From the NCBI RefSeq assembly GCF_009834765.1, contig NZ_WVHP01000002.1, positions 62,001-126,000 of the forward strand: a stretch of DNA of 64,000 nucleotides, read 5' to 3'. Shown piece after piece: positions 651-15,963 of this stretch. Under the pieces are notes generated by a model. The model was not told the DNA's origin. It worked only from the letters and a program-made list of their open reading frames with translations, and ran no database searches. This DNA is from Saccharibacter sp. EH611. Lineage in GTDB: Bacteria > Pseudomonadota > Alphaproteobacteria > Acetobacterales > Acetobacteraceae. Each line of letters begins with the position of its first letter. Within the stretch, counting starts at the first letter, position 1. Position numbers and translations under genes: made by a program.

Positions 651-2399
651 TTGACCGAGGCCAACCTAAATACCCAAAGCCCCCTGTCTATGACGCCAAG
701 CCGTTCAGGTTTAGCACGTCGCTATGGGGATTTTCCAAGCTTTCCAGCCGCGCTTGACTACGCAGCGCAGGGGGATTCTGGATTCAATATCTATTCGGGC
801 CGCGGAACCCTCGTAGAGTCACTTCCGTACCGTCAGCTGCGCGAGCAGGCGCTGGTCATTGCTCGTCGGCTACTAGGGCTTGGATTAAAACAGGGGGATC
901 GTGTCGCTCTCGTCGCTGAAAGTGACGGTGACTTTGCCCGTATTTTCTTCGGCTGCCAGTACGCAGGTCTTGTTCCCGCTCCTCTGCCACTTCCTGTCGC
1001 TTTTGGTGGGCGTGAATCCTATATAGACACGCTTCGTGGTATGATTGGTAGTGCGAGTGCTCGCGCGGTTATCGTTCCCAAAGTGATCGGCGGCTGGACT
1101 GAAGCCATCGTCGAAGGATTAGATATTGTTTTTGGCGGCTCTCCTGCCGAACTGATGGAGCATCCCGCCAAGGACTGCTCACTCCCCCAGATAACTCCCG
1201 ATGACCTGTCATACCTGCAGTTTTCTTCAGGAAGCACCCGTTTTCCTATGGGAGTAGCGGTTACTCAAAAAGCAGGCATGGCGAATGCACATGCTATCGC
1301 AGCTTACGGGTTGTGTGTTCATCCATCCGAAGACCCTCGTGATGACCGTTGCGTTTCTTGGCTTCCACTTTATCACGACATGGGGTTGGTTGGTTTCTTC
1401 CTCACCCCCATGACCTGCCAGCTTTCGGTTGACCTTCTTCCAACGCGCGAGTTTGCACGACGCCCCCATATCTGGCTCGAACTTATTTCACGCAATCGCG
1501 GTACATTGTCATATGGCCCATCCTTTGGCTTTGAACTGTGTGCTCGTCGCGGTGCTCGTGATGAAATCGATCTCTCCTGCTGGCGTGTAGCAGGAATCGG
1601 TGGGGATATGATTCGCCCCCATATCTTGAAACAATTTGCTGATATCTTCGCTTGTCGAGGGTTCGATCAACGTGCATTCGTTGCTAGCTACGGCATGGCT
1701 GAAACAACACTAGCCGTCAGTTTTGCTCCTTTAAATCAAGGACTTAAAGCGGATACAGTTGACCTTCGTTATTTAGAAGGGAAGAATTACGCACGCCCTG
1801 CTGATGAGCAAACAACAGCGGAACGTGCTTTTGTGCTATGCGGTAAACCATTACCCTTGCATGAAATCGAAGTAAGATCACCAGATGGAACTGTTCTTGC
1901 GGAACGAGAAGTCGGAACGATTTTCGTTCGTGGGCCTAGCCTCATGGTCGGTTACTTTAATCAACCTGAAGCTACAGCTCAGACGCTTTCTCAGGATGGG
2001 TGGTTAAATACAGGAGATATCGGGTATTTCCTTGATGGACAAATTGTTGTCACAGGACGTGCCAAAGACCTCATTATCATCAATGCGCGTAATATTTGGC
2101 CACAAGATTTAGAGTGGGCTGCCGAGAGTGAAATTACCTCTTTACGCTCACGTGATGTTGCCGTTTTCTCTGTAGATGATACCGATGGTGAAAAGGTTGT
2201 CGCGCTTGTTCAGTGTCGCATAACGGACACATCACTTAGGGAAGAGCTAAAGGACGGACTCACGTCTCTCTTCCGACGATTGCACGGTATTGATGTGGAT
2301 GTTGTCCTTGTTGCTCCCCGTACGCTCCCTCAAACTTCGTCCGGGAAATTAAGTAGAGCAAAGGCCAAAAACATGTTCTTGGCCGGAGAGTTTAAGTAG
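651..2399 (+). CDS. Fatty acyl-AMP ligase / acyl-ACP synthetase of the sphingolipid locus
   Basis: A 582-residue adenylate-forming enzyme. Visible motifs are the phosphate loop FSSGSTRFP (residues 191-199), YGMAETTLA, GWLNTGDIGY, and GRAKDLIIINARNIWPQDLE, a form typical of fatty acyl-AMP ligases acting with a carrier protein. A C-terminal SSGKLSRAK supplies the catalytic lysine. It should activate a fatty acid as acyl-AMP and load it on the ACP encoded next, feeding serine palmitoyltransferase, as established for the Caulobacter ceramide cluster. The open frame begins at a TTG (651) with AAGG almost touching it; an in-frame ATG at 690 lacks a clear ribosome site, so the start is undecided. 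A terminator-like hairpin separates it from the ACP gene. Which fatty acid it loads cannot be read. Confidence 0.85.
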   Translation: MTEANLNTQSPLSMTPSRSGLARRYGDFPSFPAALDYAAQGDSGFNIYSGRGTLVESLPYRQLREQALVIARRLLGLGLKQGDRVALVAESDGDFARIFFGCQYAGLVPAPLPLPVAFGGRESYIDTLRGMIGSASARAVIVPKVIGGWTEAIVEGLDIVFGGSPAELMEHPAKDCSLPQITPDDLSYLQFSSGSTRFPMGVAVTQKAGMANAHAIAAYGLCVHPSEDPRDDRCVSWLPLYHDMGLVGFFLTPMTCQLSVDLLPTREFARRPHIWLELISRNRGTLSYGPSFGFELCARRGARDEIDLSCWRVAGIGGDMIRPHILKQFADIFACRGFDQRAFVASYGMAETTLAVSFAPLNQGLKADTVDLRYLEGKNYARPADEQTTAERAFVLCGKPLPLHEIEVRSPDGTVLAEREVGTIFVRGPSLMVGYFNQPEATAQTLSQDGWLNTGDIGYFLDGQIVVTGRAKDLIIINARNIWPQDLEWAAESEITSLRSRDVAVFSVDDTDGEKVVALVQCRITDTSLREELKDGLTSLFRRLHGIDVDVVLVAPRTLPQTSSGKLSRAKAKNMFLAGEFK

Positions 2400-2406
2400 G
2401 TATAAT
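2379..2406 (+). promoter_or_regulatory. Candidate promoter for the acp-spt pair
   Basis: TATAAT at 2401-2406, immediately after the acyl-AMP ligase stop codon, is a perfect -10 match. TTGGCC at 2379-2384 lies 16 bases upstream as a half-matching -35. A start near 2413 would put the hairpin at 2421-2444 at the very beginning of the RNA. Confidence 0.4.
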
Positions 2407-2420
2407 GGGGCAATGCATTT

Positions 2421-2449
2421 GGGAGAGTACACCCCCGCTCTCCCTTTTT
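2421..2449 (+). terminator. Intrinsic terminator or attenuator between the acyl-AMP ligase and ACP genes
   Basis: GGGAGAG (2421-2427) and CTCTCCC (2438-2444) form a perfect 7-bp GC-rich stem with a 10-base loop, followed at once by TTTTT. This is the classical intrinsic terminator form, yet it lies between two genes of one pathway on the same strand. It may limit read-through into acp-spt or attenuate a promoter at 2379-2406. Confidence 0.65.
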
Positions 2450-2474
2450 AGACGCTTACAAAGGTTCGAAGCTC

Positions 2475-2729
2475 ATGACTGACAGCATCCCTAACATCGC
2501 CGATATGATTATTGAGAAGCTGCTCGCTAACCCTAAGGTTCCACGTAACATTAACGCGGATAGCCGCATTGTCGAAGATCTTGCTTTCGATAGCTTAGCT
2601 GTTATGAACTTTGTGATGGAAATTGAAGATACGCTTGATGTTTCTGTCCCTCTTGATAGACTGGCGGACATAAGGACGATCAATGATTTAGCATCGTGCT
2701 TACATGGTATTAAGGCAGAACAAGCATGA
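2475..2729 (+). CDS. Acyl carrier protein dedicated to sphingolipid synthesis
   Basis: An 84-residue acidic protein with the phosphopantetheine attachment motif FDSLAV, Ser40 being the expected modified residue. It differs clearly from the housekeeping AcpP encoded at 16017-16262, which has the usual GADSLD motif. It lies between the acyl-AMP ligase and serine palmitoyltransferase genes, and its stop overlaps the next start (ATGA). The likely role is to carry the long acyl chain to serine palmitoyltransferase, as in the Caulobacter cluster. An AAAGG lies upstream of the ATG. Partner specificity is inferred from position. Confidence 0.85.
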   Translation: MTDSIPNIADMIIEKLLANPKVPRNINADSRIVEDLAFDSLAVMNFVMEIEDTLDVSVPLDRLADIRTINDLASCLHGIKAEQA

Positions 2730-3928
2730 CATCTGGATTGTTTGATAAGTACGCATCTCTTAAAAAGTCATATGAATCTCTCGTTGAGGCCTCTCCACGT
2801 AATCCGTTCGGTGTGGTTATTGAGCGTCCTCTATCGGCTACGGTTGGCATCATTGAAGGGCGTGAAACGCTTCTTTTTGGAACCAACAATTATCTTGGCC
2901 TAAGTCAGTCTCGACATGCACGCGATGCTGCTATTGAGACAGCGACGTCTATGGGCGTTGGAACAACAGGCTCGCGCATTGCCAATGGTACTTTCTCCCT
3001 TCATAAGAAGTTGGAGAAACGCTTATCCGAAGTTTTCCATCGCAAACACACGATGGTCTTTTCAACAGGCTATCAAGCGAATCTGGGAACAATCTCAGCC
3101 TTGGTCAACAAGGACGATATCTTATTCCTAGATGCGGATAGCCATGCAAGCATCTACGATGGAGCAAAACTATCAGGCGCTCAGGTCATCCGCTTCCGCC
3201 ATAATGACCCTGCTGACCTAGATAAACGACTAGCTCGTACAAAAAATTCTCCAGGGGCTCGCCTTGTCATTGTTGAGGGTATTTATTCCATGACCGGGAA
3301 TATTGCCCCTATTAAAGAGTTTGTGGATGTTAAAAATCGCCATAATGCCTCCTTAATGGTCGATGAAGCACATTCTTTTGGTGTGTTGGGTGAACATGGA
3401 CGAGGTGTCGCTGAGCTACAAAATTGCGAAAATGGCGTTGACTTTGTCGTTGGCACGTTTTCTAAATCTTTGGGAACAGTTGGCGGCTACTGCGTTACGG
3501 ATCATGATGAAATTGACCTCATGCGTCTCTGCTCACGCCCCTATATGTTCACAGCCTCTCTACCTCCCGAAATTATTGCAGCGACTCTCGCGGCATTAGA
3601 GGATATTCAGAACAAGCCAGAACTGCGAACTACTCTGCAAAGAAATTCTACTCAGTTACATGCAGGGTTGAAAGAATTAGGCCTCACGACAAGTGATTTC
3701 GTCTCCCCCGTTATCGCGGTTACACTTGAGACTATTCCGCAAGCTATGGCTTTTTGGAATGCTCTTCTAGAAGCGGGTGTTTACGTCAATCTTTCGCTAC
3801 CTCCCGCAACGCCAGACAATCGCCCTCTTCTGCGTTGTTCTGTTATGGCTGCTCACTCTTCTGAAGAGATTGCTAAGGCGGTAAATGTTTTTGGGAATGT
3901 TGCTCGCACTCTCGGTGTCATCTCTTAA
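2726..3928 (+). CDS. spt: Serine palmitoyltransferase (alpha-oxoamine synthase)
   Basis: A 400-residue PLP enzyme of the alpha-oxoamine synthase family. Features are TNNYLGL near residue 53, the cofactor-stacking His140 in DADSHAS, DEAHSFG (213-219) and the PLP lysine Lys247 in GTFSKSLG. Related enzymes (KBL, AONS, ALAS) share these motifs. The adjacent dedicated ACP and acyl-AMP ligase make serine palmitoyltransferase by far the best call: it condenses serine with an acyl thioester to 3-ketosphinganine, the first step of ceramide synthesis. Translation is coupled to the ACP gene by a 4-base overlap. No ketosphinganine reductase or ceramide synthase follows, so these must be elsewhere. Confidence 0.87.
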   Translation: MTSGLFDKYASLKKSYESLVEASPRNPFGVVIERPLSATVGIIEGRETLLFGTNNYLGLSQSRHARDAAIETATSMGVGTTGSRIANGTFSLHKKLEKRLSEVFHRKHTMVFSTGYQANLGTISALVNKDDILFLDADSHASIYDGAKLSGAQVIRFRHNDPADLDKRLARTKNSPGARLVIVEGIYSMTGNIAPIKEFVDVKNRHNASLMVDEAHSFGVLGEHGRGVAELQNCENGVDFVVGTFSKSLGTVGGYCVTDHDEIDLMRLCSRPYMFTASLPPEIIAATLAALEDIQNKPELRTTLQRNSTQLHAGLKELGLTTSDFVSPVIAVTLETIPQAMAFWNALLEAGVYVNLSLPPATPDNRPLLRCSVMAAHSSEEIAKAVNVFGNVARTLGVIS

Positions 3929-3943
3929 CGGATGTAGCTTCGC

Positions 3944-3981
3944 AAAGGGAGGTAAGTAAGGATTAAACTTACTTTCCCTTT
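3944..3981. terminator. Hairpin between converging spt and Tam41-like genes
   Basis: AAAGGGA plus AAGTAAG (3944-3960, with a GGT bulge) pairs with CTTACTTTCCCTTT (3968-3981), a 14-bp bulged stem with a 7-base loop. It lies exactly between two convergent genes and could end both transcripts. No T-run directly abuts it on either strand. Confidence 0.5.
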
Positions 3982-4007
3982 ACCTTCAAATCAAAAAAGA
4001 CACTTTT

Positions 4008-4949
4008 TTATTTTCGGAAGGCAGACCTTATATGCCTGAAGCGCCATAAAAGAAGCGGTAAACTGAGAATGGGATGAGTCATCTCAAAAGAAGAGAGAGT
4101 AATCTTTTCTCCCGTGTGCCGCTGAATTTTCCACAATAGATATTTAATCCCATCACTAAACGTGAAAGCTGCTTTTAGAAGACGTACTACATTCAAAAAA
4201 TGTCCTATTTTTTGAATTTCTCCCCACTTGTGGTGTGCTTTTAAGCGTACAGCTGGTGTTAAGTGAGGTTGCAACGTCTCATTGATAACGTCTGCACTCA
4301 AAGATGCATGATGCCATGCTGCCAGTAGGATAGTTTTATAGCGCTTCTCTCTTCCCGTTAACAAATTTCGGCTTCGTCCTTTTTTCTCCACTCTTAGCTC
4401 TGCTTTATAAGTGCGAGCAAAAAGGTCATGCCAATAATCCTCAGCTGTTCCTGAATACGGGCCTAACAAGGCAGCCCAACAAGACGCTGTAATAACGCAA
4501 CGTCTGAGAGCCTCTAAAATACCATCAGCTGCTTTATTATTTCTCACCCAGACCAACCGTACCGGTTGGCAAAAACGTGCCCATATTGTGCTATCTCTGC
4601 TTTCTAATGTGCTGCGAGCTAGAAACTGAGAGAGAGATAAAACTGCAACCTTTGCTCGAAGCGTTTTGCCTGCAGGAATGGTATGCTCAACATAATATAC
4701 ATTGGGTGGCAGAATCTTATTAGCCAATCGTCCTATGCTAGAGTGGCTCAGATTAACTGTCCGATCTGTGATGACGTAAAAATCTAAAATCCCTTCATAG
4801 TCCGTTTCTCTCAAAACGGATCCATAAAAAAGAATCCCTAATGGAGGAGCTTTAAATAGATGCGCAACATAATCGGCTAGCTCACTCACCGCAGAATCAG
4901 TCGCTTCTGTCAGCTCGCTTATTAAAATCTTTTCCAGAGAATCAGACAT
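4008..4949 (-). CDS. Tam41/Mmp37-like nucleotidyltransferase (CDP-lipid synthase candidate)
   Basis: A 313-residue protein with a nucleotidyltransferase-fold start (FYGSVLRET, then LDFYVITD) near residues 41-62. Next come PPNVYYVEHTI and a KVAVLSLSQF segment, then QPVRLVWV. The order and spacing resemble mitochondrial Tam41, the soluble phosphatidate cytidylyltransferase that makes CDP-diacylglycerol. The match is by eye and distant. Its start overlaps the end of the lipid kinase gene by 8 bases, so kinase and cytidylyltransferase look like two consecutive steps. I infer that the kinase product (ceramide phosphate, or phosphatidate) may be converted to its CDP form for head-group attachment. 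A nucleotidyltransferase of other specificity remains possible. Confidence 0.6.
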   Translation of the reverse strand: MSDSLEKILISELTEATDSAVSELADYVAHLFKAPPLGILFYGSVLRETDYEGILDFYVITDRTVNLSHSSIGRLANKILPPNVYYVEHTIPAGKTLRAKVAVLSLSQFLARSTLESRDSTIWARFCQPVRLVWVRNNKAADGILEALRRCVITASCWAALLGPYSGTAEDYWHDLFARTYKAELRVEKKGRSRNLLTGREKRYKTILLAAWHHASLSADVINETLQPHLTPAVRLKAHHKWGEIQKIGHFLNVVRLLKAAFTFSDGIKYLLWKIQRHTGEKITLSSFEMTHPILSLPLLLWRFRHIRSAFRK

Positions 4950-5904
4950 GCAAAAACCTAAAGCTGGGGCCTTTTTCTAAAAAAATGCGCCTGTCATCTT
5001 TAGCTGGGAAAACCTCTCCATCCAAAACAAAATCACTATCAGTTTCAAGAGCAATACGAATCGCCCGATCGCTCTTATAATCCTCATGCTGTTGCAGCCA
5101 ATTTGGCACTCTTCCTCTAAGAAGATTTCCAAGAACTTTAGGAAGATTCTTAGGAAAAGAAGCGACATCTAAGAAGTGGAAACCTTCATCGTGCCTTTTA
5201 TCGCTCCAGAAGGGCCATATACCACGAGATAGCTTTTCTAACGCCGTCGCTATGAAGAGAAAGCTATCTCCATCACGATCCCCCCTTTCACAGGGAGGAA
5301 AAACCTCACGCTTTAGATAGTTCCCCTTCATCCAAGAATTTCGGCTACGCGCAAAGAAAAGACTAACAACGCTCGTTAAAAACGTATAAATAACAGCCAA
5401 ATCATGAGGAGCAAAGCGAATCACCGTCGGTTCATGAGCAATCCGAATAGCACGCGCGTATCCCGTACATCCCCCAAACATACCTAATACGCTAGGTTGA
5501 CTACCGTCATGCCATGAGAGACGAATAGGTGACCGCTCACTAGATTTAAGTGCTTTTCCCGCCATGACATAGTCAACAGCAGCGGGCCCACGCAAACCAA
5601 ACCCAACATCGGAAGCAATGAGGTTTGTGTTCCCTGCCGGCAAGATGGCGATTGCTGGTAAGTTATCTTCTGGATAAATAGCTGCAATCGCCGTTAAGCA
5701 GGCACTAACGGTTCCATCCCCTCCGTTGATCATGATCAAATCAACATTGTCTTTTTTCAATTCACGAATATGCTCAGGTAAATGCTCATCATGCTGGGAG
5801 CATACACAAAACTTTCCGAGCTTTCCCCGCGCAAAGGCGACAAACTTGCCCCCATCTTGCTGATTTCTACGACTGTTTGGATTATGAATAAGAGCTGGTC
5901 GCAC
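4942..5904 (-). CDS. Lipid kinase of the diacylglycerol/sphingosine kinase family (candidate ceramide kinase)
   Basis: A 320-residue protein of the DAGK catalytic family. NPNSRR is near residue 8, the nucleotide-binding GGDGTVS is at 61-67, and LPAGNTN follows, all diagnostic. The start is GTG at 5904. Bacterial members phosphorylate diacylglycerol or related lipids at the inner membrane, and a distinct ceramide kinase of this general type is known in the Caulobacter sphingolipid cluster. Placement beside serine palmitoyltransferase favours ceramide or a long-chain base as substrate, but that is inference. It is first in a minus-strand pair with the Tam41-like gene and diverges from the phosphoesterase operon, sharing the 5905-6074 promoter region. 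Confidence 0.75.
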   Translation of the reverse strand: MRPALIHNPNSRRNQQDGGKFVAFARGKLGKFCVCSQHDEHLPEHIRELKKDNVDLIMINGGDGTVSACLTAIAAIYPEDNLPAIAILPAGNTNLIASDVGFGLRGPAAVDYVMAGKALKSSERSPIRLSWHDGSQPSVLGMFGGCTGYARAIRIAHEPTVIRFAPHDLAVIYTFLTSVVSLFFARSRNSWMKGNYLKREVFPPCERGDRDGDSFLFIATALEKLSRGIWPFWSDKRHDEGFHFLDVASFPKNLPKVLGNLLRGRVPNWLQQHEDYKSDRAIRIALETDSDFVLDGEVFPAKDDRRIFLEKGPSFRFLHV

Positions 5905-6074
5905 GATTTTAGTCGGTCTTTATGGCTATAAATGTGGAAACCAGAGGCGCAAAATGCTCAACTGGCTGTTCTGGTGCTAGCCGAGGTCTTATATCACGGC
6001 TATGTTAACGGAACCAGTAAGGAAGGTTCTTCCTCACTGAAAATAATACTCTCGCTTCTTGATGTCGGAACCAT

Positions 6075-6992
6075 ATGCCTTCCAGAGCTCACTTTTTTCC
6101 TCCAGCCCCTTTGCAGGCTGCTCAAACGATTAGCTTGGCACATATATCAGACCCACATCTTCCTCTTCCTTCAATCCCTTGGACATCTTTCTTTCTCAAT
6201 AAGCGACTTCTCAGTGCACTTTTATGGCGCATAAAGAGACAGCACTGCCTCCGCCCTGATATTAATAAGAGACTGTTGAAAAGCATCCAGAGTGTTAAGA
6301 CACTTTCTAACATTCTTGTGAGTGGTGACATTACAAACTTCGGAACTTACGAAGAATATCTTTCGTCAAGAAGTTGGCTTCAAAGATTGCCTGCACCGCC
6401 TATTGTTGTACCAGGCAATCATGACATTATGGTGCCCATTACACCCGAAAAAAGCCTTGCCCTATGGAAAGAATGGTCCGGGGAAAGCTATCCTTTTGTA
6501 CGCCTCATTGGTCATGTTGCTATTATCGGCCTTAATTCGGCTCTTCCTACACCACCGTTCACGGCTTATGGATACCTTTCCAAATCACAACTTCTTGAGC
6601 TAGAATCACTGCTCGAAACTCTTGGAAAACAAGGCTATTGTCGGGTTGTTATGATTCATCACCCGCCTAAAAAAGGGCTCTTAAAAAAACAAAAATCCCT
6701 TCTTAATACGAATAAACTTTCGCGTATTTTACAGCGAAGAGGAGCAGAGCTTGTCGTGCACGGGCACTCCCACAATGCTACCGTGACGACCGTCGAGAAT
6801 ACAGATATTCCTCTCGTTGGGATCGGTGCTGCGTCCATGTATAGCCATTGCGACCATAGGCAAGCCAGCTGGAATCACTTCATTTTTACACCTCAAACAA
6901 ATGAGCACCATATTCAGCTAATGCGCTACAATTACGAGGGGGAAATCATGACCCAAAAACAATGGTCAGCGCCGATCGGGGGGCTATTATGA
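6075..6992 (+). CDS. Calcineurin-like metallophosphoesterase of the sphingolipid locus
   Basis: A 305-residue two-metal phosphoesterase with the full motif series: HISDPHL (residues 23-29), VSGDIT, PGNHD, MIHHPP and HGHSH. No signal peptide or membrane segment is evident. The family hydrolyses phosphomonoesters or diesters, including lipid and nucleotide substrates. It is the first gene of a chain (phosphoesterase, lptF, lptG, hydroxylase, nucleotidyltransferase) in which each stop overlaps the next start as ATGA, so it probably works on the same lipid, for example removing a phosphate or cleaving a CDP-lipid. The substrate is unknown. The ATG at 6075 has GGAA about 6 bases upstream. Confidence 0.8.
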   Translation: MPSRAHFFPPAPLQAAQTISLAHISDPHLPLPSIPWTSFFLNKRLLSALLWRIKRQHCLRPDINKRLLKSIQSVKTLSNILVSGDITNFGTYEEYLSSRSWLQRLPAPPIVVPGNHDIMVPITPEKSLALWKEWSGESYPFVRLIGHVAIIGLNSALPTPPFTAYGYLSKSQLLELESLLETLGKQGYCRVVMIHHPPKKGLLKKQKSLLNTNKLSRILQRRGAELVVHGHSHNATVTTVENTDIPLVGIGAASMYSHCDHRQASWNHFIFTPQTNEHHIQLMRYNYEGEIMTQKQWSAPIGGLL

Positions 6993-8152
6993 AAAATAGC
7001 TTGCCGACACTAGATCGCTATCTTTTGCGTCAATTAATCCCCCCCTTTAGCATAGCGCTCACGACGATGCTGATAGCCCTTCTCTTAGAACGGCTACTCA
7101 TCCTTTTTAACCACTTAGCAAATTCCGGCAGCTCTATCGCGACTTTTGTAACGTTGCTGACAGACTTGCTGCCTCATTATATGGGGCTTGCCGTTCCTGC
7201 TGCACTTTGCATCGCGGTGTTTCTAACAATTCATCGCATGAGTGAGCATAATGAGATTGACGCTTTATGCGCTAGCCATATTTCACTTTTGCGGATCACC
7301 CTTCCCTATATGAAGGTCGGTCTCATTCTCGGCATATTAAGCGTTTTTCTCTACGGTTATATACAGCCAGTTGCCCGTTATGATTATCGTGCCGGCTTCT
7401 ATTTCGCTCGCCACACGGGATGGGCCCCTCACTTACAGTCGGGTATGTTTGCAAGCACATCGGGCCATACGATGATCACAGCAGATCGCGTCGATCACGG
7501 CGGCTCACGTTTGCTTCGTGTTTTTATTCGTGATGTTAAAAAGGATGGGACGGTTCAAATCATCACTGCTCCCAAAGGCATACTCACCATTTCAGAGCAA
7601 ACAGAAGCAACTCAGCTTGATTTGTGGAATGGTCACATTATGTCCTCCAAACATCCAGATACCCTTGGAAATGACGTTACTGTAACGCACTTTGATCATA
7701 TTACGCGCCTGATTGAACGTTCTCATAAAAAGACAAGTTTTCGCTCACGTGGTGATGACGAAAGAGAACTGACTATTTTGGAGCTCGTTCATGCCCTACG
7801 TCATGGCGCTCCCGGGATCCCGTATAAAGCCTTACGTTCTGAGCTAGATTTCCGACTTGCCCGAGCAATTGCTATTCCCTTTATCCCCCTTCTATCCGTT
7901 GCATTAGCTGTTGGCCGGAAAAGAAAAAAATCTGCTTTTAGACAAATTGCTCTTGCCGTTATCTTGGTAGGCTTTGATGAGACACTTCTTTTTGGGCATA
8001 GTCTTGCCGCTGAAGGAGCCTCTCCTGTTTGGCTCTCGATCTGGGTTCCTGAGATAATTTTTTGCACAGCTTGTATTCTAGTTCTGCTTTCACGATCGTA
8101 CCCTGCATGGTACCGTCCTTCAAAGCGTGCTCACACGGGTAATCATCCATGA
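6989..8152 (+). CDS. lptF: LptF/YjgP-family permease
   Basis: A 387-residue membrane protein of the YjgP/YjgQ family: three N-terminal transmembrane helices, a central periplasmic beta-jellyroll region, and C-terminal helices (IAIPFIPLLSVALAVG and beyond). LptF and LptG form the inner-membrane channel of the LptB2FG exporter, which lifts lipopolysaccharide out of the membrane. I place the start at the ATG at 6989, which overlaps the previous stop as ATGA and has a run of G just upstream; an ATG at 6962 would give nine extra residues. Its coupling to sphingolipid genes, away from lptD or lptA, suggests either the genome's only pair placed here or a paralogue for sphingolipid export. Confidence 0.82.
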   Translation: MKNSLPTLDRYLLRQLIPPFSIALTTMLIALLLERLLILFNHLANSGSSIATFVTLLTDLLPHYMGLAVPAALCIAVFLTIHRMSEHNEIDALCASHISLLRITLPYMKVGLILGILSVFLYGYIQPVARYDYRAGFYFARHTGWAPHLQSGMFASTSGHTMITADRVDHGGSRLLRVFIRDVKKDGTVQIITAPKGILTISEQTEATQLDLWNGHIMSSKHPDTLGNDVTVTHFDHITRLIERSHKKTSFRSRGDDERELTILELVHALRHGAPGIPYKALRSELDFRLARAIAIPFIPLLSVALAVGRKRKKSAFRQIALAVILVGFDETLLFGHSLAAEGASPVWLSIWVPEIIFCTACILVLLSRSYPAWYRPSKRAHTGNHP

Positions 8153-9249
8153 TCTCTTTTTCACGGCATTCAACATTACTTCGTGTTTTTCTAAAGCCGC
8201 TTACAGCTCGTATTCTGCTTTGCTGCGCCGTTCTATCTGCACTGCTTGAAGTGCTTGCCCTTCTGGAAGAAGCATCTACAATATTGTCGCGCCATTTAGG
8301 CGTATATGGACTTATAAAATATAGCCTTCTCCACCTCCCAACATTAGCCGCGGAAATCATGCCACTGTCCGTCATGGTTGGCTCTCTGTTCACACTTTTA
8401 CAAATGACTCTTTCCAGTGAAATAGCAGCTATGAGAGCGTCGGGCTTATCGACATTTAACATGTTTAAATATCTTTTGCCGGCACCAATTTTTATTGGCA
8501 TTCTCACAATGATTGCTCAATTTTGGGTCATTCCTCCTTGCGAGCAAACGCTTAATATTTGGTGGAACGAAACAGCGACTCTTTCCAACGATCAAGATGC
8601 TCTCAGAGGTATATGGTTCCGCAATGCCGGTAATATTGCTCATATCGAGCAAATTAGTGCGGGCGGCTATCATCTAAAGGGGGTAACAATTTATAAGCGT
8701 CAGCCCGATACTGGGCTGTTACAGAAGACCAAACATTTCTCCGCCCTCACTGCGAGCCCTTCAGGATGGATCGCCAGCAACGACTCCTTAGAAACAACGA
8801 TTGACCAAAATCAAGATAAGGGCGAGACCTCCCCACTCCCTCAAAAATTTCCTCTGACCGTGACGCCACGACAGATTATTAATATGACTGTAGGAGGAAC
8901 TTTCTATACTCCCTCTCAAATATGGGCCGCTCTATCCGGCCGTATTCCTTCTAGTTTGCCAGCATCTAATTATTTGATGGCCTTATTGTCAGGTTTTTTC
9001 CTTCCCTTGCAAATGGCCGTTATGCTTCTCATCACTCTTCCAATCACCTATATCCCTCCACGGGCTGGTTTAAGAAATCCTCTGCCGGTATATGTTATGG
9101 CGTCAGGATTAGGTATTGTCATTTTGCAAGGAATGATCTCTGCCCTAGGGAATGCTGGTTCTGTACCAGTTTTGCTTGCTGTCAGCTCTGGGCATATCAT
9201 AGCGGCTTTACTAAGTTTGGCTTGGGTGCTGCGAATGGAGGAAAAATGA
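8149..9249 (+). CDS. lptG: LptG/YjgQ-family permease
   Basis: A 366-residue partner of the preceding LptF-like protein with the same layout: N-terminal helices, a soluble periplasmic middle and C-terminal helices. PTLAAEIMPLSVMVGSLFTL is typical of the LptG coupling region. Its ATG lies in the ATGA that ends lptF, and its stop overlaps the hydroxylase start in the same way. In the known machine LptF and LptG bind two LptB ATPases; no lptB is present in this window. Whether the cargo is LPS or a sphingolipid cannot be told from sequence. Confidence 0.82.
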   Translation: MISFSRHSTLLRVFLKPLTARILLCCAVLSALLEVLALLEEASTILSRHLGVYGLIKYSLLHLPTLAAEIMPLSVMVGSLFTLLQMTLSSEIAAMRASGLSTFNMFKYLLPAPIFIGILTMIAQFWVIPPCEQTLNIWWNETATLSNDQDALRGIWFRNAGNIAHIEQISAGGYHLKGVTIYKRQPDTGLLQKTKHFSALTASPSGWIASNDSLETTIDQNQDKGETSPLPQKFPLTVTPRQIINMTVGGTFYTPSQIWAALSGRIPSSLPASNYLMALLSGFFLPLQMAVMLLITLPITYIPPRAGLRNPLPVYVMASGLGIVILQGMISALGNAGSVPVLLAVSSGHIIAALLSLAWVLRMEEK

Positions 9250-10052
9250 GTACGCTGGGAAAATTCTTTAAAGAAGCCCCGTTGTTGAGAAAAGGGCGGA
9301 GTTACGACCTCGGCAAGATGAACCTTGCTCAGTTATGGTCTGCTTACCTGACCTATCCGATAATTATGTTATATTTTCTTCTCATTATCGGAACGGCTGT
9401 TTTTTCAGCTTATCTCTCACACAATATCTGGCTCAGCTTAATTCCTGTTCCTGTTGTCATCGCTGTTTATCCGACAGCTTGGTACATGATTCATCGTTAT
9501 ATTCTTCATGGGCGTTGGTTTTATCGTAACCCTATCACAGCCTCTATGTGGAAACGCATCCATTTTGACCATCATCAAGACCCTCATCTGTTAGAAGTGT
9601 TATTTGGCTCCCCCCTCAATACCGTGCCAACGATGATGGTGATCACCATGCCTATTGGTGCACTTATTAGCGGATGGAGCGGTGCTTTTTCAGCACTTTC
9701 TACAGCTTTGGTGATGACATGCATTTATGAATTTTTTCATTGCATTCAGCATCTAGCATATAAACCTCGTTGGAATTGGGTTGTTTATATTAAACAGCTT
9801 CATGTGCTGCATCATTTCCACGATGAAGACGGAAATTACGGAATCACAAACTACCTTCCAGACCGTTTGCTTGGAACCTTCTATCGTGAAGCAAAAGAAA
9901 GACCACGTAGCCCATACGTCTTCAACCTTGGATATACGGTTGAAGAAGCCGAGCGCTATCCATGGGTTATGAAAAAAACAGGCGCCCCTCCTCGTGATCG
10001 GCCTGATCCTGCACGCGCTCCGAGGCGTGAAGAACTGAACCGGCGCGCATGA
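9246..10052 (+). CDS. Sterol desaturase/fatty acid hydroxylase superfamily enzyme (ceramide hydroxylase candidate)
   Basis: A 268-residue integral membrane diiron enzyme. The histidine boxes are visible: HRYILH (83-88), HFDHH (106-110), a later FFHCIQH, and HVLHHFHDE. This matches the fatty acid hydroxylase superfamily, which includes Scs7/FA2H enzymes that 2-hydroxylate the acyl chain of ceramides. Free ceramides with 2-hydroxypalmitate are known from acetic acid bacteria, so this is a natural candidate; hydroxylation of the long-chain base is the alternative. The start at 9246 is chosen for the GGAGG 4-8 bases upstream and the ATGA overlap with lptG. An ATG at 9222 lacks these features. Confidence 0.8.
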   Translation: MSTLGKFFKEAPLLRKGRSYDLGKMNLAQLWSAYLTYPIIMLYFLLIIGTAVFSAYLSHNIWLSLIPVPVVIAVYPTAWYMIHRYILHGRWFYRNPITASMWKRIHFDHHQDPHLLEVLFGSPLNTVPTMMVITMPIGALISGWSGAFSALSTALVMTCIYEFFHCIQHLAYKPRWNWVVYIKQLHVLHHFHDEDGNYGITNYLPDRLLGTFYREAKERPRSPYVFNLGYTVEEAERYPWVMKKTGAPPRDRPDPARAPRREELNRRA

Positions 10053-10816
10053 TGCTTCCTGTCTTGGTATTAGCAGGGTCACGTGATGGTGAGCGTGACC
10101 CTTTAGCCCAATTGGGAAACGTCTCCCATAAGGCACTTCTCCCAATTGCTGGTATTCCTATGATTGAGCGGGTTGTGCGTGTTCTTGAGGATACTCCCGA
10201 CCTTGGCCCAATTTGGGTAAGTATTGAAAAACCTTCTTGTTTAGAATTCTTAGGGAAACGTATTCGCGTCTTAGAAGCAGCCTCTACCCCAAGTGAGAGT
10301 GTTGCTAAGGCATTAGACGAAATCGGCACCCCATGCCTTATTACGACGGCTGATCATGCCCTTTTGTCTTCTCAATGGATCCAAGAATTTCTTGAAAAAA
10401 GCCGTGCTTCTCAAGCCGACCTTACGGCAGGAGTAGCATCTGACCAAGCTATCCGACGTGATGTCCCCAATACGAAACGCACATATATCAGACTATCTGA
10501 TCTGACATTTTCAGGGTGTAATCTTTTTTACTTCCATGATGCTCGTGCACGCTCTGTCGTTACGTTATGGCAGAACTTACAACGCAACAGGAAGCGTCCT
10601 CTAAAAATGGCGTGGACATTAGGCATTCCAACGCTTCTACGTTTTATTCTTCGACAATTAGACACCAGTGGCATTGAGCAACGCATTGCTCATTTAACTC
10701 ATGCCTCTGTCAAAATTGTCACCCTGCAAGACGGTAAAGCATCCATTGACGTCGATAAAGTCTCTGACTTTCACCTCGTAAATGACTTACTCAATGAAGA
10801 AAAGAAGCAGTCATAG
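10049..10816 (+). CDS. MobA-like NTP transferase domain protein
   Basis: A 255-residue protein starting with a variant nucleotide-binding loop (VLVLAGSRDGERDPLA), followed by KALLPIAGIPMIERVVRVL and ITTADHALL. This pattern fits MobA/GlmU-type nucleotidyltransferases that activate phosphates of sugars or polyols. It is the last gene of the coupled phosphoesterase-lptFG-hydroxylase chain, overlapping the hydroxylase stop as ATGA. A role in making an activated head group (for example a CDP- or UDP-alditol or inositol) for the sphingolipid is plausible. The loop departs from the classical LAGG-x-SxRMG form, so the reaction is unassigned. Confidence 0.6.
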   Translation: MMLPVLVLAGSRDGERDPLAQLGNVSHKALLPIAGIPMIERVVRVLEDTPDLGPIWVSIEKPSCLEFLGKRIRVLEAASTPSESVAKALDEIGTPCLITTADHALLSSQWIQEFLEKSRASQADLTAGVASDQAIRRDVPNTKRTYIRLSDLTFSGCNLFYFHDARARSVVTLWQNLQRNRKRPLKMAWTLGIPTLLRFILRQLDTSGIEQRIAHLTHASVKIVTLQDGKASIDVDKVSDFHLVNDLLNEEKKQS

Positions 10817-10835
10817 AGACATAACTCTATGACTG
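10808..10835. terminator. Bidirectional terminator containing both stop codons
   Basis: CAGTCATAGAG (10808-10818) and CTCTATGACTG (10825-10835) form a perfect 11-bp stem with a 6-base loop. The TAG stop of the nucleotidyltransferase (10814-10816) and the TAG stop of the converging gene (10827-10829) both lie inside the stem. On the minus strand a T-rich CTTCTTTTCTTC follows, so it should end the minus-strand transcript well. Confidence 0.75.
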
Positions 10836-11735
10836 TCTAAGCTTCCTATCGTTTAAAATTAGATCCCGGATCAATGGAATCTTGTGAGCTATGCCGTAGT
10901 TGATCTTTTTAAAGTCGACCAATGTGACTGATCCTGCCGCTGACAATGTATGCATGCCATCAGAATGCGAGCCTGCTAATGTTTTAGGTAGCGGAAAATG
11001 ACCTCTAGTCTCTATGCGGGGTTTCCCGTAACCTAGCCCAGAAATACGCAATGTTTGCATTCCTCCACCGTAAGATGAACTACAATCTTGCACAGGCAGG
11101 ATGACGTCATCATTGACAACACACGCCGTGCCCCCAGGACGTGCCCCTTCTCGATCAACGAGAACGCAGCCCATGTCGCACCAAGCGCCTGTTAATTCTT
11201 CGGCAAGAGCGATGTGCAATGCGCTTTGACGGTAAGATTTAGGCGTTGGAGGTGTCCAAAACAGCCACCATCGATCCCTATAAAACAACGGGGTCGCATC
11301 AATTGCACCAATTGGGAAATCAAAAGCCGTAACCCGTTCCCATTGATAAGGGAATTTCACGGCACGGTAGAGAGAAAGACGGCCAGATTTATATCCTTCG
11401 GGCAAAAGATAAAACTCATCACCATGTCGAATGATTTGTGGGTAAGAAAGATGCCAAGGTTCTTGTAAAACAGTTTCATGCTCTATGAGAGAGAAGGCTT
11501 CATCATAGACCAAAACGTCAATTTTACCTTTCCCTGGATGATAATCATATGACTCTACAAAAACATACAGACGACCATCATGCCAAATACCAAATGGATC
11601 TGCGAAAAAATGTCTTTTCCCATAATCTGGAAGCCACGTGATGCCATAACCTTCAAGAGTATTGCGCTTAATGACCTCTTCAAAAGGAGCATGCACAATC
11701 GCACAACGCCAATGATCCATTTCAAAAAGTGACAT
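10827..11735 (-). CDS. Protein resembling the N-terminal domain of glucosamine inositolphosphorylceramide transferase
   Basis: A 302-residue soluble protein with beta-propeller-like repeats: FFADPF near residues 43-48, HLSYPQI, DATPLFY, a DRWWLFWT strand and an EGARPGGTA loop. This pattern matches the domain found at the N-terminus of plant GINT1 enzymes, which glycosylate inositolphosphorylceramide, and in many bacterial proteins. In plants it precedes a GT64 domain; here it stands alone. The setting makes a role in sphingolipid head-group glycosylation attractive. The start at 11735 is chosen because AGGAG lies 5 bases upstream; an ATG at 11762 has no such site. It is monocistronic and converges on the preceding operon. 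Confidence 0.65.
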   Translation of the reverse strand: MSLFEMDHWRCAIVHAPFEEVIKRNTLEGYGITWLPDYGKRHFFADPFGIWHDGRLYVFVESYDYHPGKGKIDVLVYDEAFSLIEHETVLQEPWHLSYPQIIRHGDEFYLLPEGYKSGRLSLYRAVKFPYQWERVTAFDFPIGAIDATPLFYRDRWWLFWTPPTPKSYRQSALHIALAEELTGAWCDMGCVLVDREGARPGGTACVVNDDVILPVQDCSSSYGGGMQTLRISGLGYGKPRIETRGHFPLPKTLAGSHSDGMHTLSAAGSVTLVDFKKINYGIAHKIPLIRDLILNDRKLRQS

Positions 11736-11838
11736 GACCTCTCCTATATAATTTGATGACATTATGCTGTGACCATCTCTCCATTCTATATTACTATCAT
11801 AAAAGATGATTTTATGTTAGCGAGGAACAATTACCTTG

Positions 11839-12642
11839 ATGAAAAACACCATGGCAAATACGGAGGTTGACCTCCGCTTCCAAGCCGCTTCCAATATTGT
11901 CGCCGATGCAGCCGAGCTTGCTCTCTCTATGCAGCCTGCCCCAGGGAAACCTCAAGCTTCCCTCAAAGGACGGCAGGACTACGTCACCGAGGCAGATCAA
12001 GCTGTAGAAAAATTTGTGACAGAACGCCTACAGGCTCTATTCCCACAGGATAGCGTGCTTGGGGAAGAAAAAGGCGGAGGCATTGGTGCTCAATATCAAT
12101 GGGTCATCGACCCTATTGATGGAACTTCAAATTTTGCGCGCGGGCGCAACCGTTGGTGCATTTCGCTCGGTCTCATGAAAGAAAATACGCCAGTCGCTGG
12201 TATTATTAATGCTCCAGCTCTACGGGAAATTTTTACAGCTCAACTTGGTCAGGGCGCTTTCCTCAACAACCGGCCCATCAATGCTTCAAAAACCTCAACC
12301 ATGAACGAAGCTATGGTTGAGATTGGTTGGTCGCCCTATGTTCCTGAAGGCTGGTTTCAAGAACGTATGTCGTCGATGCTCTCTTTAGGCGCCATGCCTC
12401 GTTCCCTCGGGTCTGGAGCGTTAGCTCTCGCTGATGTCGCTTGTGGTCGTTCGGATGGGTATTTAGAGCATACTATTTTTCTCTGGGACGTCGCGGCTGC
12501 TTTGATTCTTTTAAAAGAAGCAGGTGCTGATGTTTCCCCGTTCATCAAAATGGGGGGAACTACACAGCCTACAACCATTCTGGCAAGTGCTCCCAGCGTC
12601 TCATCTATTTTATCACAATCTTTTAATGTAAAAATGACGTGA
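11839..12642 (+). CDS. Inositol monophosphatase family protein
   Basis: A 267-residue Mg-dependent phosphatase. It shows VTEADQAVE, the metal ligands GEEKGG and DPIDGTSNF (near residue 95), and the C-terminal LWDVAAALILLKEAG. Family members dephosphorylate inositol-1-phosphate, 3'-phosphoadenosine phosphates or fructose-1,6-bisphosphate. Next to a GINT1-like gene, an inositol phosphate or inositol-phospholipid substrate is reasonable, but a general SuhB or histidinol-phosphatase role is not excluded. The start is either ATG 11839 or the TTG at 11836; GAGGA at 11822-11826 spaces slightly better to the TTG. Confidence 0.8.
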   Translation: MKNTMANTEVDLRFQAASNIVADAAELALSMQPAPGKPQASLKGRQDYVTEADQAVEKFVTERLQALFPQDSVLGEEKGGGIGAQYQWVIDPIDGTSNFARGRNRWCISLGLMKENTPVAGIINAPALREIFTAQLGQGAFLNNRPINASKTSTMNEAMVEIGWSPYVPEGWFQERMSSMLSLGAMPRSLGSGALALADVACGRSDGYLEHTIFLWDVAAALILLKEAGADVSPFIKMGGTTQPTTILASAPSVSSILSQSFNVKMT

Positions 12643-12705
12643 CGCTTTCCTCAGATCATTTTACGAACATTTTGTATGGTCTTATCCTGATGAAAGAACC
12701 TTCTT

Positions 12706-13422
12706 ATGCCCTCTTTTTCGCGCTTTCCCACTAAAACGCTATGCGCTCTAGGTGGCATCACAATATTGGGTGCCTGCTCGTCAACAAGTTCAGCAACGAC
12801 TGCATCTGAACAGCAGCCTCTCGTTGAGCAGGCAGCGTCGTCTGTGAAGAGTTTTTTCAGCAATGGAAACCAAGCACAGCGAGCAGCAAAGCTTTTAAAG
12901 AAGTCACACGCTGTTATGGTGTGCCCTTCTATATCGAATATGTCTCTTATTTTTGGTGGCTCTAGTGGACGATGCACACTTTTAAGTCGTGATGCACGCG
13001 GATCATGGTCAGATCCGGCATTTTATACCATCAGCTCAGGCACTTTTGGGCTTCAACTTGGGTATCAGCATTCTCAACTCATGCTCTTTATCACATCCAA
13101 ACGTGGCGTTCAGGCGCTTTTGGATCATCAGTTCACTTTTGATGCCAACGCCAGTGCCTCCTTCACCAGTTTTGGGGGCAGCGCTCAGAGCAGTCATGTA
13201 AGCGGTGGGAAACATGATATCTACGCCTTACAGCAAGCGAATGGTGTTTTTGCTGGAGGAGCGCTTGGAGGAAGCAAACTATCAGCAGACAGCGCTGCAA
13301 ACCGAGCCTATTACCAGCAATATGTTGGGCCAGAAGATATTGTTGTAAATATGCGCGTCAACAATCCTTCTGCAGACGTTTTACGTCGTGCTTTAATGAA
13401 AGCTGAAAAGAAGGCACAGTAA
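12706..13422 (+). CDS. SYLF-domain (YSC84-like) lipoprotein
   Basis: A 238-residue protein with a lipoprotein signal: a hydrophobic stretch ending in ILGAC, with Cys24 as the lipidated residue. Residues about 60-235 form a SYLF/Ysc84 domain: GVMVCP-like AVMVCPSI, FGLQLGYQ, GGSAQ and the C-terminal LRRALMKAEKKA. SYLF domains bind phosphoinositides or other lipids in eukaryotes, and bacterial members are secreted or periplasmic lipoproteins of unclear role. It follows the sphingolipid locus with only 63 bases between, so co-transcription is possible. A link with lipids is suggestive only. Confidence 0.82.
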   Translation: MPSFSRFPTKTLCALGGITILGACSSTSSATTASEQQPLVEQAASSVKSFFSNGNQAQRAAKLLKKSHAVMVCPSISNMSLIFGGSSGRCTLLSRDARGSWSDPAFYTISSGTFGLQLGYQHSQLMLFITSKRGVQALLDHQFTFDANASASFTSFGGSAQSSHVSGGKHDIYALQQANGVFAGGALGGSKLSADSAANRAYYQQYVGPEDIVVNMRVNNPSADVLRRALMKAEKKAQ

Positions 13423-13431
13423 TGACTAAAC

Positions 13432-13457
13432 AGGCCGCTTCCTAAAAGAAGTGGCCT
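13432..13457. terminator. Convergent hairpin between the SYLF gene and mltG
   Basis: AGGCCGCTTC (13432-13441) pairs with GAAGTGGCCT (13448-13457) over 10 bp with one G-T wobble and a 6-base loop. It lies between two convergent genes. The T-run is weak on both strands, so termination efficiency is uncertain. Confidence 0.6.
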
Positions 13458-13468
13458 TCATACCTCCG

Positions 13469-14536: not shown

Positions 14537-14606
14537 GATCTATATGATACAATGAGAAGAGGAGCTTCTCAAGCCTAAGACAGAGAAACTCCCGATACTC
14601 CTCATT

Positions 14607-15890: not shown

Positions 15891-15963
15891 CGACGCCCTA
15901 CCTCGTATTCTTCTTATCAAACAAGCGGAATAGCCTTACACCACCCCGCTTTTCCATTCACAA

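Follow-up and report, generated by a model that had tools for sequence, protein, structure and literature searches.

A conserved gene cluster of Saccharibacter sp. EH611 predicted to build and export a phosphorylated hydroxy-ceramide

The closest described system is the ceramide phosphoglycerate (CPG)/CPG2 locus of Caulobacter crescentus, CC_1168-CC_1152 (PMC11324152, PMC10331486, PMC12275187). The role of AasR has been demonstrated in this organism (PMC9386255), CpgB is reported to be a ceramide kinase (PMC10331486), the formation of CPG requires the kinase and CC_1161, and CC_1153 and CC_1158 are assigned to the conversion of CPG into CPG2 (PMC11324152). A DesA-family hydroxylase, CC_0202, is listed elsewhere in the Caulobacter genome. 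Gluconobacter oxydans, a related acetic acid bacterium, carries the same aasR-acpR-spt trio as the locus analyzed here, and the distant position of its acyltransferase gene (aca) and of epi is already published (PMC9386255). In Escherichia coli BL21(DE3), ECD_02850-02854 bring together an acyl-AMP ligase, an ACP, SPT and a YghO-type CerS with an LptF/G pair, as here; this cluster includes an epimerase-type CerR, and no lipid kinase, Tam41-like protein, ntp or gint is annotated in the stretch examined.

We analyzed a window of 64,000 nucleotides from Saccharibacter sp. EH611. The twelve genes proposed to form a sphingolipid locus between positions 651 and 12642 are all open reading frames in place and their profile matches agree, indicating that the locus is real (Table 1). 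Its SPT is 98% identical to that of S. floricola, and aasR also lies upstream of acpR-spt in other acetic-acid-bacterial loci. The genes are tightly packed, with consecutive overlaps of 31, 4, 28 and 4 bases along mpe-lptF2-lptG2-fah-ntp and of 8 bases between tam and kin, and this order is repeated across genera, so that the arrangement is not due to chance. The lptF2/lptG2 pair (182 and 175 bits for PF03739) is one of two LptF/LptG pairs in the genome, the other, on contig C1, scoring higher. Sites combining a hairpin with a T run, such as that between aasR and acpR, number 16 in the region versus 11.7 (sd 3.7) in shuffled sequences, which is not a clear excess.

Table 1 Features of the sphingolipid locus, with positions in the window.
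Feature	Description	Position	Strand	Evidence
aasR	acyl-AMP ligase family, predicted dedicated acyl-ACP synthetase	651..2399	+	NF006624, 886 bits (cut-off 600)
hairpin and T run	possible attenuator or terminator in the aasR/acpR gap (weak evidence)	2421..2444	+	
acpR	acyl carrier protein dedicated to SPT	2475..2729	+	PF00550; 4-base overlap with spt
spt	serine palmitoyltransferase	2726..3928	+	NF047599, 600.5 bits (cut-off 500)
tam	Tam41-like nucleotidyltransferase, CC_1161/CpgC-type, predicted ceramide-1-phosphate activation	4008..4949	-	AlphaFold model and fold search
kin	DAGK-family lipid kinase, CC_1160/CpgB-type, predicted ceramide kinase	4942..5904	-	PF00781
mpe	calcineurin-like phosphoesterase, CC_1158-type	6075..6992	+	PF00149
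lptF2	second LptF-type permease	6962..8152	+	PF03739
lptG2	second LptG-type permease	8149..9249	+	PF03739
fah	hydroxylase; predicted target ceramide acyl chain or base	9222..10052	+	PF04116
ntp	MobA/CofC-like nucleotidyltransferase, CC_1153-type by family and position	10049..10816	+	PF12804
gint	GINT1_N-domain five-bladed beta-propeller, predicted sugar-active	10827..11762	-	PF24793, 90 bits
imp	IMPase-family phosphatase; cluster membership unsure	11836..12642	+	PF00459

The content and order of the cluster match those of Caulobacter CC_1165-CC_1153 by locus number (PMC11324152), with aasR, acpR, spt, the Tam41-like gene, the kinase, the phosphoesterase, LptF2, LptG2 and the CofC-like nucleotidyltransferase (whose nearest solved relative is TTHA0179) common to both; equivalence with the CC_ genes was set here by family, fold and order rather than by direct alignment. 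The head-group genes, described as an unusual set in the original prediction, are less so than claimed, since most of them have already been described as part of the phosphosphingolipid set of Caulobacter (PMC11324152). The accessory GINT1_N and GT4 genes do differ from the Caulobacter locus. Other differences are the PF04116 hydroxylase, which follows lptG2 and precedes ntp, the place occupied by cerS in the Caulobacter locus numbering, the location of CerS outside the locus, and CerR, CpgA and a CpgD-like gene, which are treated below.

The tam product has no Pfam or NCBIfam match above cut-off. Nevertheless, its predicted structure (pLDDT 90) retrieves Tam41 with a Foldseek E of 1.1e-8, and VIA-align gives Z 18.3 for Tam41 versus 6.9 for the best non-Tam41 entry. 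The fold is that of the Tam41 CDP-DAG synthase (PDB 7ecd, 6ig2, 6ig4; Z 15-18), at 11-14% identity and with ceramide-1-phosphate as predicted substrate, whereas that of Tam41 is phosphatidic acid. We also observe 27 invariant residues across the 37 aligned sequences, including G43, S44 and D56. By family and modelled fold, kin and tam would fit the ceramide kinase CpgB and CpgC/CC_1161, respectively.

Among 100 Acetobacteraceae genomes, 30 have spt, 26 have the Tam41-like gene and 25 have both. The association of tam with spt (25/26 tam-positive genomes, Fisher p 1.4e-17) and that of GINT1_N with tam (24/26 tam-positive genomes versus 8/74 others, p 3.5e-14) are calculated ignoring kinship, and the co-occurrence is partly the shared descent of one clade. 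The kinase gene adjoins tam in the window and in all 25 other tam-positive loci, fah is present at all 25, and mpe, lptF2, lptG2 and ntp are each present at 24, the case missing ntp being a contig end. In genome G029 (locus L126), mpe, lptF2 and lptG2 are missing from the locus although tam, kin, fah and ntp remain, so the linkage with the exporter is not strict. Distant alpha- and gammaproteobacterial loci show much of the same gene content in varied order. The original prediction had made a single functional system depend on co-conservation with spt across relatives; exceptions aside, spt is accompanied by tam, kin, LptF2/G2, the hydroxylase, ntp and the GINT1-like gene, which supports a single system for the synthesis, decoration and export of a sphingolipid.

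The first three genes of rhodobacterial ceramide synthesis (AasR/AcpR/Spt/CerS/CerR) are all present in the locus, and CerS and CerR queries gave no match in the window, in agreement with the expectation that part of the pathway lies elsewhere. The search of the whole genome located one of the two missing genes: CerS, a YghO/CC_1154-type acyltransferase, is encoded on contig C18, outside the window (full query coverage, 33% identity), and CerS is found in 31/31 genomes with spt or tam versus 2/9 spt-negative controls. For CerR, this genome yielded no orthologue: the matches are partial (32-38% identity), and the best is HpnA (TIGR03466, 487 bits, cut-off 368). Clear CerR orthologues (E <= 5.5e-69) occur in six genomes, namely G086, the query's own genome, and five others at 47-55% identity; outside these six the best E is 6.3e-17.

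In all 24 CerR-less genomes of the set L171-L194, a gene for an SDR reductase (PF00106) adjoins cerS divergently. These 24 SDRs form one clade with support 100/100, which also takes in L223; all have the catalytic Ser and YxxxK, and 22 match a strict expression of the cofactor motif. Among the 31 genomes with spt or tam, CerR is found in 0/24 with the SDR pair and in 6/7 without it (p 9.5e-6), the remaining genome, G021, having neither and only an SDR of 39-40% identity near aasR. In at least two of the CerR genomes, G068 and G098, cerS has CerR itself as its neighbour and lacks an adjacent SDR, and no SDR of the cerS-paired type was found in the six CerR genomes among the first 25 candidates scored in large genomes, all six included. 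We therefore propose, from the sequences, the SDR beside cerS as a candidate for the missing ketosphinganine reductase, of the TSC10/FVT1/BT_0972 kind. It resembles the SDR-type 3-ketosphinganine reductase BT_0972 of Bacteroides thetaiotaomicron (PMC9278070) by family and by the Tyr-x-x-x-Lys and Gly-x-x-x-Gly-x-Gly motifs, although the latter comes from another phylum and another gene context. The SDR could act on another substrate, as glk is a neighbour of the pair in 18/24 genomes. The pair might even be coincidental if acetic acid bacteria kept a very divergent true CerR, such as the G. oxydans epi product GOX1849, an epimerase-type reductase named in PMC9386255, and weak CerR-type matches indeed occur in every genome searched. 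We consider this unlikely, given that, across the 24 genomes that carry the SDR pair, E values with the CerR query never fall below 3.8e-16, far from those of true orthologues, that the window's genome shows only HpnA-type or weaker matches, that the pair persists where the flanks show no glk or thiL (L176, L186, L188, L193 and L194), and that SDRs of this group adjoin spt-like genes in G006, G010, G056 and G096, lying between the spt-like gene and cerS within the main locus in G056 and between cerS and the spt-like gene in G010.

Taking together the observed gene identities, folds, order and co-conservation, the presence of CerS and the undetected CerR and CpgA in the genome, we infer a series of reactions and a head group. 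AasR would load a fatty acid onto AcpR, and SPT would join acyl-AcpR and serine into 3-ketosphinganine, whose ketone would be reduced by the SDR encoded beside cerS on C18, rather than by a CerR orthologue, before N-acylation by CerS. The PF04116 hydroxylase would add a hydroxyl group, the kinase would form ceramide-1-phosphate, and the Tam41-like enzyme would use CTP to attach CMP and so form CDP-ceramide, the activated lipid. The CofC/MobA-like ntp product and the phosphoesterase may then provide or complete a small head group linked through phosphate, with glycerate (giving CPG) as the likeliest candidate; LptF2/G2, with an assumed shared LptB ATPase, would deliver the product to the outer membrane. 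The GINT1-like propeller, and the GT4 found beside gint in relatives, could be an accessory sugar module. We give a probability of about 0.68 to this main reading, in which the locus makes an acyl-hydroxylated ceramide and adds a phosphate, this phosphate is activated and extended, and the lipid is passed to LptF2/G2 as its dedicated exporter.

The head group leaves more room for alternatives. A gene resembling that of CpgA, the CDP-alcohol transferase needed for CPG2, is found at loci L033, L034, L044, L051 and L139, and more weakly at L047, and at none of the acetic-acid-bacterial loci examined. No CpgA-type transferase was found in the window's genome either, where PF01066 matches only PgsA- and PssA-type frames, both named by size and neighbours (PgsA adjoins uvrC, PssA adjoins psd). 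A gene like that of CpgD, the phosphoglycerate cytidylyltransferase, searched with an L044 gene assigned by family rather than with the Caulobacter sequence, had no match at acetic-acid-bacterial loci. CPG2, the double-phosphoglycerate form, is therefore not expected, and the assignment of CC_1153 and CC_1158 to its formation fits poorly with the retention of ntp and mpe in a genome without CpgA. This retention is consistent with tam, kin, ntp and mpe attaching a sugar phosphate or another phospho-alcohol instead of glycerate, with the GT4 and the GINT1-like propeller finishing a phospho-glyco-ceramide with a new head group. GT4 is present at 13 and gint at 12 of the 25 other tam-positive loci, and where gint lies away from the locus (L149-L156), a GT4, an undescribed family of 376-451 aa or a flippase homologue is nearby in 7/8 regions, the exception being L150. 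Yet none of these proteins has a known reaction, the locus in the window lacks GT4, and the glycan genes may serve exopolysaccharide or LPS; this reading is somewhat unlikely. The inositol-based head group suggested in the original prediction fares worse: an inositol-phosphoceramide, or a plant-like glucosamine-inositol-phosphoceramide with inositol supplied by the IMPase and an amino sugar added by the GINT1-like protein, is highly improbable, in spite of a GINT1_N match inside a sphingolipid locus, its strong co-occurrence with tam, its absence from all 14 control genomes, and the adjacent IMPase gene. Inositol-3-phosphate synthase (PF07994) has no match in the window's genome versus matches in 5/14 control genomes, which bears on de novo synthesis and not on inositol import, and the CDP-alcohol transferases are limited to the PgsA and PssA types. 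In plant GINT1, the GT64 catalytic domain is C-terminal; in the 311 aa gint protein, PF24793, the N-terminal propeller domain, is the only domain above cut-off in the Pfam scan, with no GT64, and the model (pLDDT 85) has a GH130/GH62/GH117/GH43-type fold (Z about 19-22), pointing to a glycosidase or phosphorylase type. The imp gene lies outside the overlapping operon, and its product is below every NCBIfam cut-off, the best likeness being HisN. It is present at 17/25 other tam-positive loci, usually followed by ysc84-mltG-fabF, with an MmcB-type gene in 10/25, and probably belongs to this flanking block rather than to the cluster.

It is also conceivable that ceramide synthesis alone is functional, the remainder being envelope genes that are unrelated to it but conserved as neighbours, and the only product a free 2-hydroxyacyl dihydroceramide. 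Acetic acid bacteria contain free hydroxy-ceramides, and the literature titles and abstracts searched name no phosphosphingolipid from them. We regard this as very unlikely in view of the distribution of the genes: at the threshold used, tam occurs in just one of the 70 genomes without spt, namely G056, which has a divergent spt-like gene; the five spt-positive genomes without tam all lack gint; and split loci keep both halves, in G054 (L021, Neokomagataea anthophila) and in G066, where 23 kb separate them.

Combined with the main reading, these data lead us to suggest, tentatively and at less than even odds, that an unrelated SDR, divergently paired with cerS, has replaced CerR in a eukaryote-like route that reduces before acylating, and that the product is a phospho-ceramide dedicated to export, its head group being assembled with no CpgA (and apparently no CpgD) and receiving a sugar cap through the GINT1_N propeller/GT4 module. 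If this is true, enzymes of the CC_1153 and CC_1158 types would be able to act at the first phosphoglycerate step, and bee- and flower-associated as well as other acetic acid bacteria would possess a new class of outer-membrane sphingolipid.

The sphingolipid locus is real and conserved, and it is mostly explained by the published Caulobacter pathway, with informative losses. All of the genes named in the original prediction are present in it and profile matches agree, with SPT and the acyl-AMP ligase also passing curated NCBIfam cut-offs; the SPT shares 98% identity with its Saccharibacter floricola DSM 15669 counterpart (locus L030). The genes acpR and spt overlap downstream of aasR, tam and kin lie on the opposite strand to these three with an 8-base overlap, mpe-lptF2-lptG2-fah-ntp form a chain with four overlaps, gint is convergent to ntp with a gap of 10, and imp lies 73 bases past gint on the other strand. 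LptF2/G2 are a second pair, the other pair of the genome (contig C1) scoring higher. Alanine-racemase-like and thiamine-type genes, named by eye, lie upstream of aasR, and the flippase found there in the Gluconobacter/Neokomagataea arrangement was not found upstream in the window. A promoter scan of the region was uninformative (13 sites vs 18.3 expected). Downstream, the order imp-ysc84-mltG-fabF is kept at many loci (L120-L146), an MmcB-type gene preceding imp at several of them, and this block looks like a housekeeping flank.

Table. Coordinates of the features discussed (C, contigs of the Saccharibacter sp. EH611 genome; L, extracted loci or regions; G in the text, genomes of the 100-genome Acetobacteraceae survey)
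Feature	Position	Strand	Also as
Window (genome size 2.28 Mb)	C2:62001-126000		
Sphingolipid locus	window 651-12642		
imp-ysc84-mltG-fabF	window 11836-15920		
SDR beside cerS	C18:37414-38220	minus	L157:8415-9221
cerS	C18:38278-39501		
Additional weak CerR match	C21:357694-358029		
Family of 376-451 aa without Pfam match	L019:6459-7811		
Sulfotransferase-domain gene	L046:19393-21138		

We searched 15 window genes across 79 named SPT loci. All twelve locus genes occur together at 13 loci of Saccharibacter, Bombella, Parasaccharibacter and relatives, and eight Asaia and Swaminathania loci have all but gint, with a GT4 glycosyltransferase before imp; gint is found elsewhere in the genome in G008 and G085, apparently Swaminathania (L022) and Asaia (L026). 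GT4 and gint are both present at the Gluconobacter morbifer locus. Three Neokomagataea loci comprise aasR-acpR-spt only, but the idea that this genus is without head-group genes was rejected, because the second half was located elsewhere in the same genome: in Neokomagataea anthophila (G054 = L021) aasR-acpR-spt and tam...gint-imp are both kept, on separate contigs. The same halves lie 23 kb apart in G066. Some loci further afield, in alpha- and gammaproteobacteria, cluster spt, tam, kin, mpe, lptF2/G2, cerS and ntp, in varied order and sometimes with gaps; many others from these classes lack such clustering.

Among 100 Acetobacteraceae genomes from 100 genera, all counted, including 13 with <90% completeness or >5% contamination, spt was found in 30, tam in 26, both together in 25, and GINT1_N in 32. 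The cut-off for spt was E <= 1e-100; divergent spt-like genes (31-33% identity; G006, G010, G056, G096) therefore count as negative. GINT1_N is present in 24 of the 26 genomes with tam vs 8 of the 74 without it; this comparison and the joint occurrence of tam and spt rest on gene-presence sets compiled by hand from the survey results and on statistics that ignore shared descent. At the 25 tam loci besides the window, kin and fah are always present, mpe, lptF2, lptG2 and ntp are each present at 24, and imp, GT4 and gint at 17, 13 and 12, respectively. At its locus the 1.9 Mb genome G029 (L126) retains the genes aasR, acpR, spt, tam, kin, fah and ntp but has no mpe, lptF2 or lptG2; no ntp was seen in G009, where the contig ends ahead of its place.

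By family and order, the window has counterparts of Caulobacter CC_1165, 1163, 1162, 1161, 1160, 1158, 1156, 1155 and 1153. According to the account of these genes in PMC11324152, CC_1161 (CDP-DAG-synthase domain) and CC_1160 (ceramide kinase) are required for ceramide phosphoglycerate (CPG), efficient formation of its double-phosphoglycerate form, CPG2, requires CC_1159, CC_1158, CC_1153 and CC_1152, the second Lpt genes include CC_1156 and CC_1155, and CC_1154 is CerS; its authors consider that the roles of CC_1161, CC_1159, CC_1158, CC_1153 and CC_1152 need clarifying. CC_1152, or CpgD, has been shown to produce CDP-glycerate (PMC12275187). The Tam41-like protein has no profile match above cut-off, and neither tam nor fah matches PDB sequences. 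Nevertheless, the model of the Tam41-like protein (37-sequence alignment, pLDDT 90) has three Tam41 entries as best matches (Foldseek E 1.1e-8 to 1.7e-7, five chains), with VIA-align Z of 18.3, 15.8 and 15.0, the next other entry reaching 6.9.

Unlike Caulobacter, the genome keeps CC_1161-, CC_1158- and CC_1153-type genes with no CC_1159-type gene (CpgA) found by a PF01066 profile search, whose only matches are frames beside uvrC (PgsA) and a psd-type gene (PssA), these neighbours being named by eye. Family-checked CpgA-like and CpgD-like queries from locus L044, searched in 119 loci (79 SPT loci and 40 fetched), gave no match at 25 named acetic-acid-bacterial loci or at the fetched loci of genomes with the SDR pair described below. 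The expected product is therefore CPG or some other single head group, and not CPG2. That CC_1153- and CC_1158-type genes are kept where CpgA is missing suggests that their proteins work ahead of CPG2 formation or independently of it. We also considered ntp as CpgD and rejected it, because L044 has an ntp homologue (41%) plus a separate NTP-transferase of another kind. An inositol-based head group, raised as a possibility in the original prediction, was abandoned as the main reading on the CDP-alcohol-transferase, inositol-phosphate-synthase, IMPase and gint-fold results. The GINT1_N model is a sugar-enzyme-type beta-propeller (pLDDT 85, 14-sequence alignment) that in fold comes nearest to mannoside phosphorylases (GH130, Z up to 21.9), with GH159, GH62, GH117 and GH43 enzymes also near (Z about 19-21); these matches lie close together and thus indicate a predicted sugar-enzyme fold class, not a reaction. 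Against PDB sequences, gint gave three marginal matches, all to a motility repressor.

The surroundings of gint point to glycosylation of an exported lipid. GT4 lies between ntp and gint at 7 of the 25 tam loci, and gint is away from the locus in 11 genomes; in seven of the eight such regions examined, a GT4, a protein of 376-451 aa without Pfam match or a polysaccharide-flippase homologue is close by. The E. coli BL21 cluster also holds a flippase relative (30%). Genes serving an envelope polysaccharide instead would look similar. The 376-451 aa family (L019, with relatives in L153, L154, L155 and L136) immediately precedes aasR in Gluconobacter morbifer, Neokomagataea and Asaia; in other places it adjoins gint or GT4. 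In spt regions of non-acetic alpha- and gammaproteobacteria, we observe a sulfotransferase-domain gene (L046; also L040, L061, L063, L065, L073, L075, L041) together with a family of 300 aa that has no Pfam match, which suggests that different sphingolipid head groups are made there.

As anticipated, part of the pathway lies outside the window: cerS is on contig C18, 33% identical to the query over full query length. Among 40 chosen genomes, cerS occurs in 31 of 31 with spt or tam vs 2 of 9 controls without spt. Clear CerR orthologues (E <= 5.5e-69) were found in six of 32 entries for chosen genomes (G049, G063, G068, G071, G086, G098), the best E in the other 26 (25 different genomes, G100 repeating G054) being 6.3e-17. 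CerR in the Saccharibacter genome itself was rejected: its two weak matches are HpnA (TIGR03466), the best one, and a 221-aa frame for which every NCBIfam score falls far below cut-off; a further weak match lies on C21. The aasR-acpR-spt trio with distant epi and aca genes is already published for Gluconobacter oxydans (PMC9386255). The CerR (epi) assignment of GOX1849 in that report may deserve re-examination, since the best CerR-type match in the related Saccharibacter is HpnA.

Divergent from and adjacent to cerS is a short-chain-type reductase gene (SDR), a pair found in 24 of 24 genomes without CerR (L171-L194). The SDR is absent beside cerS in G068, G086, G049 and G021 (L195-L198), G063 and G071 (L139, L143) and G098 (L164). 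CerR itself adjoins cerS, convergently, in G068 (L163) and G098 (L164). The SDR thus seems to stand in for CerR functionally and, in part, positionally, probably as a non-orthologous substitute for this reductase. In a search of all 100 genomes that scored the first 25 candidates per large genome, E <= 1e-57 was reached only in the 24 pair genomes and G010, whose SDRs form a single clade (support 100/100), with matches of 1e-44 to 1e-41 in G096, G036, G016 and G006. The 79 SPT loci yielded no strong SDR match (>120 bits) and, at 27 of them, a CerR match (>80 bits); the pair is thus a feature of Acetobacteraceae cerS loci, not of spt loci generally. According to PMC9278070, Bacteroides has an SDR with ketosphinganine reductase activity. 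We propose the SDR beside cerS as the candidate enzyme for ketosphinganine reduction in acetic acid bacteria.

Four genomes carry, next to members of the same SDR group, SPT-like genes that are divergent in sequence (31-33% identity with the window SPT). In G056 (L136) the main locus ends with the series spt-like, SDR, cerS; in G010 (L223) the series is cerS, SDR, spt-like; and in G006 (L227) and G096 (L224) an SDR of 37-40% adjoins the spt-like gene. These sets, which include cerS in G010 and G056, may represent a second ceramide core lineage, compact and lacking CerR. G021, also without CerR, has an SDR of 39-40% near aasR (L042, L123).

Acetic acid bacteria live as symbionts of insects and are used in industry, and their acid tolerance is often tied to unusual membrane lipids. 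The locus predicts a phosphosphingolipid, of which no report for these bacteria was found in the best-ranked open-access literature. Open-access searches, partly of the best 10-20 of more results, found no publication on the kinase/Tam41/LptFG part in Acetobacteraceae, or on the SDR reductase or SDR-cerS pair in acetic acid bacteria. The locus is a comparative handle on the open gene functions in the Caulobacter CPG pathway, and the SDR-cerS pair is a specific, testable reductase candidate which bears on the order of reduction and acylation, a matter of dispute according to PMC11087976.
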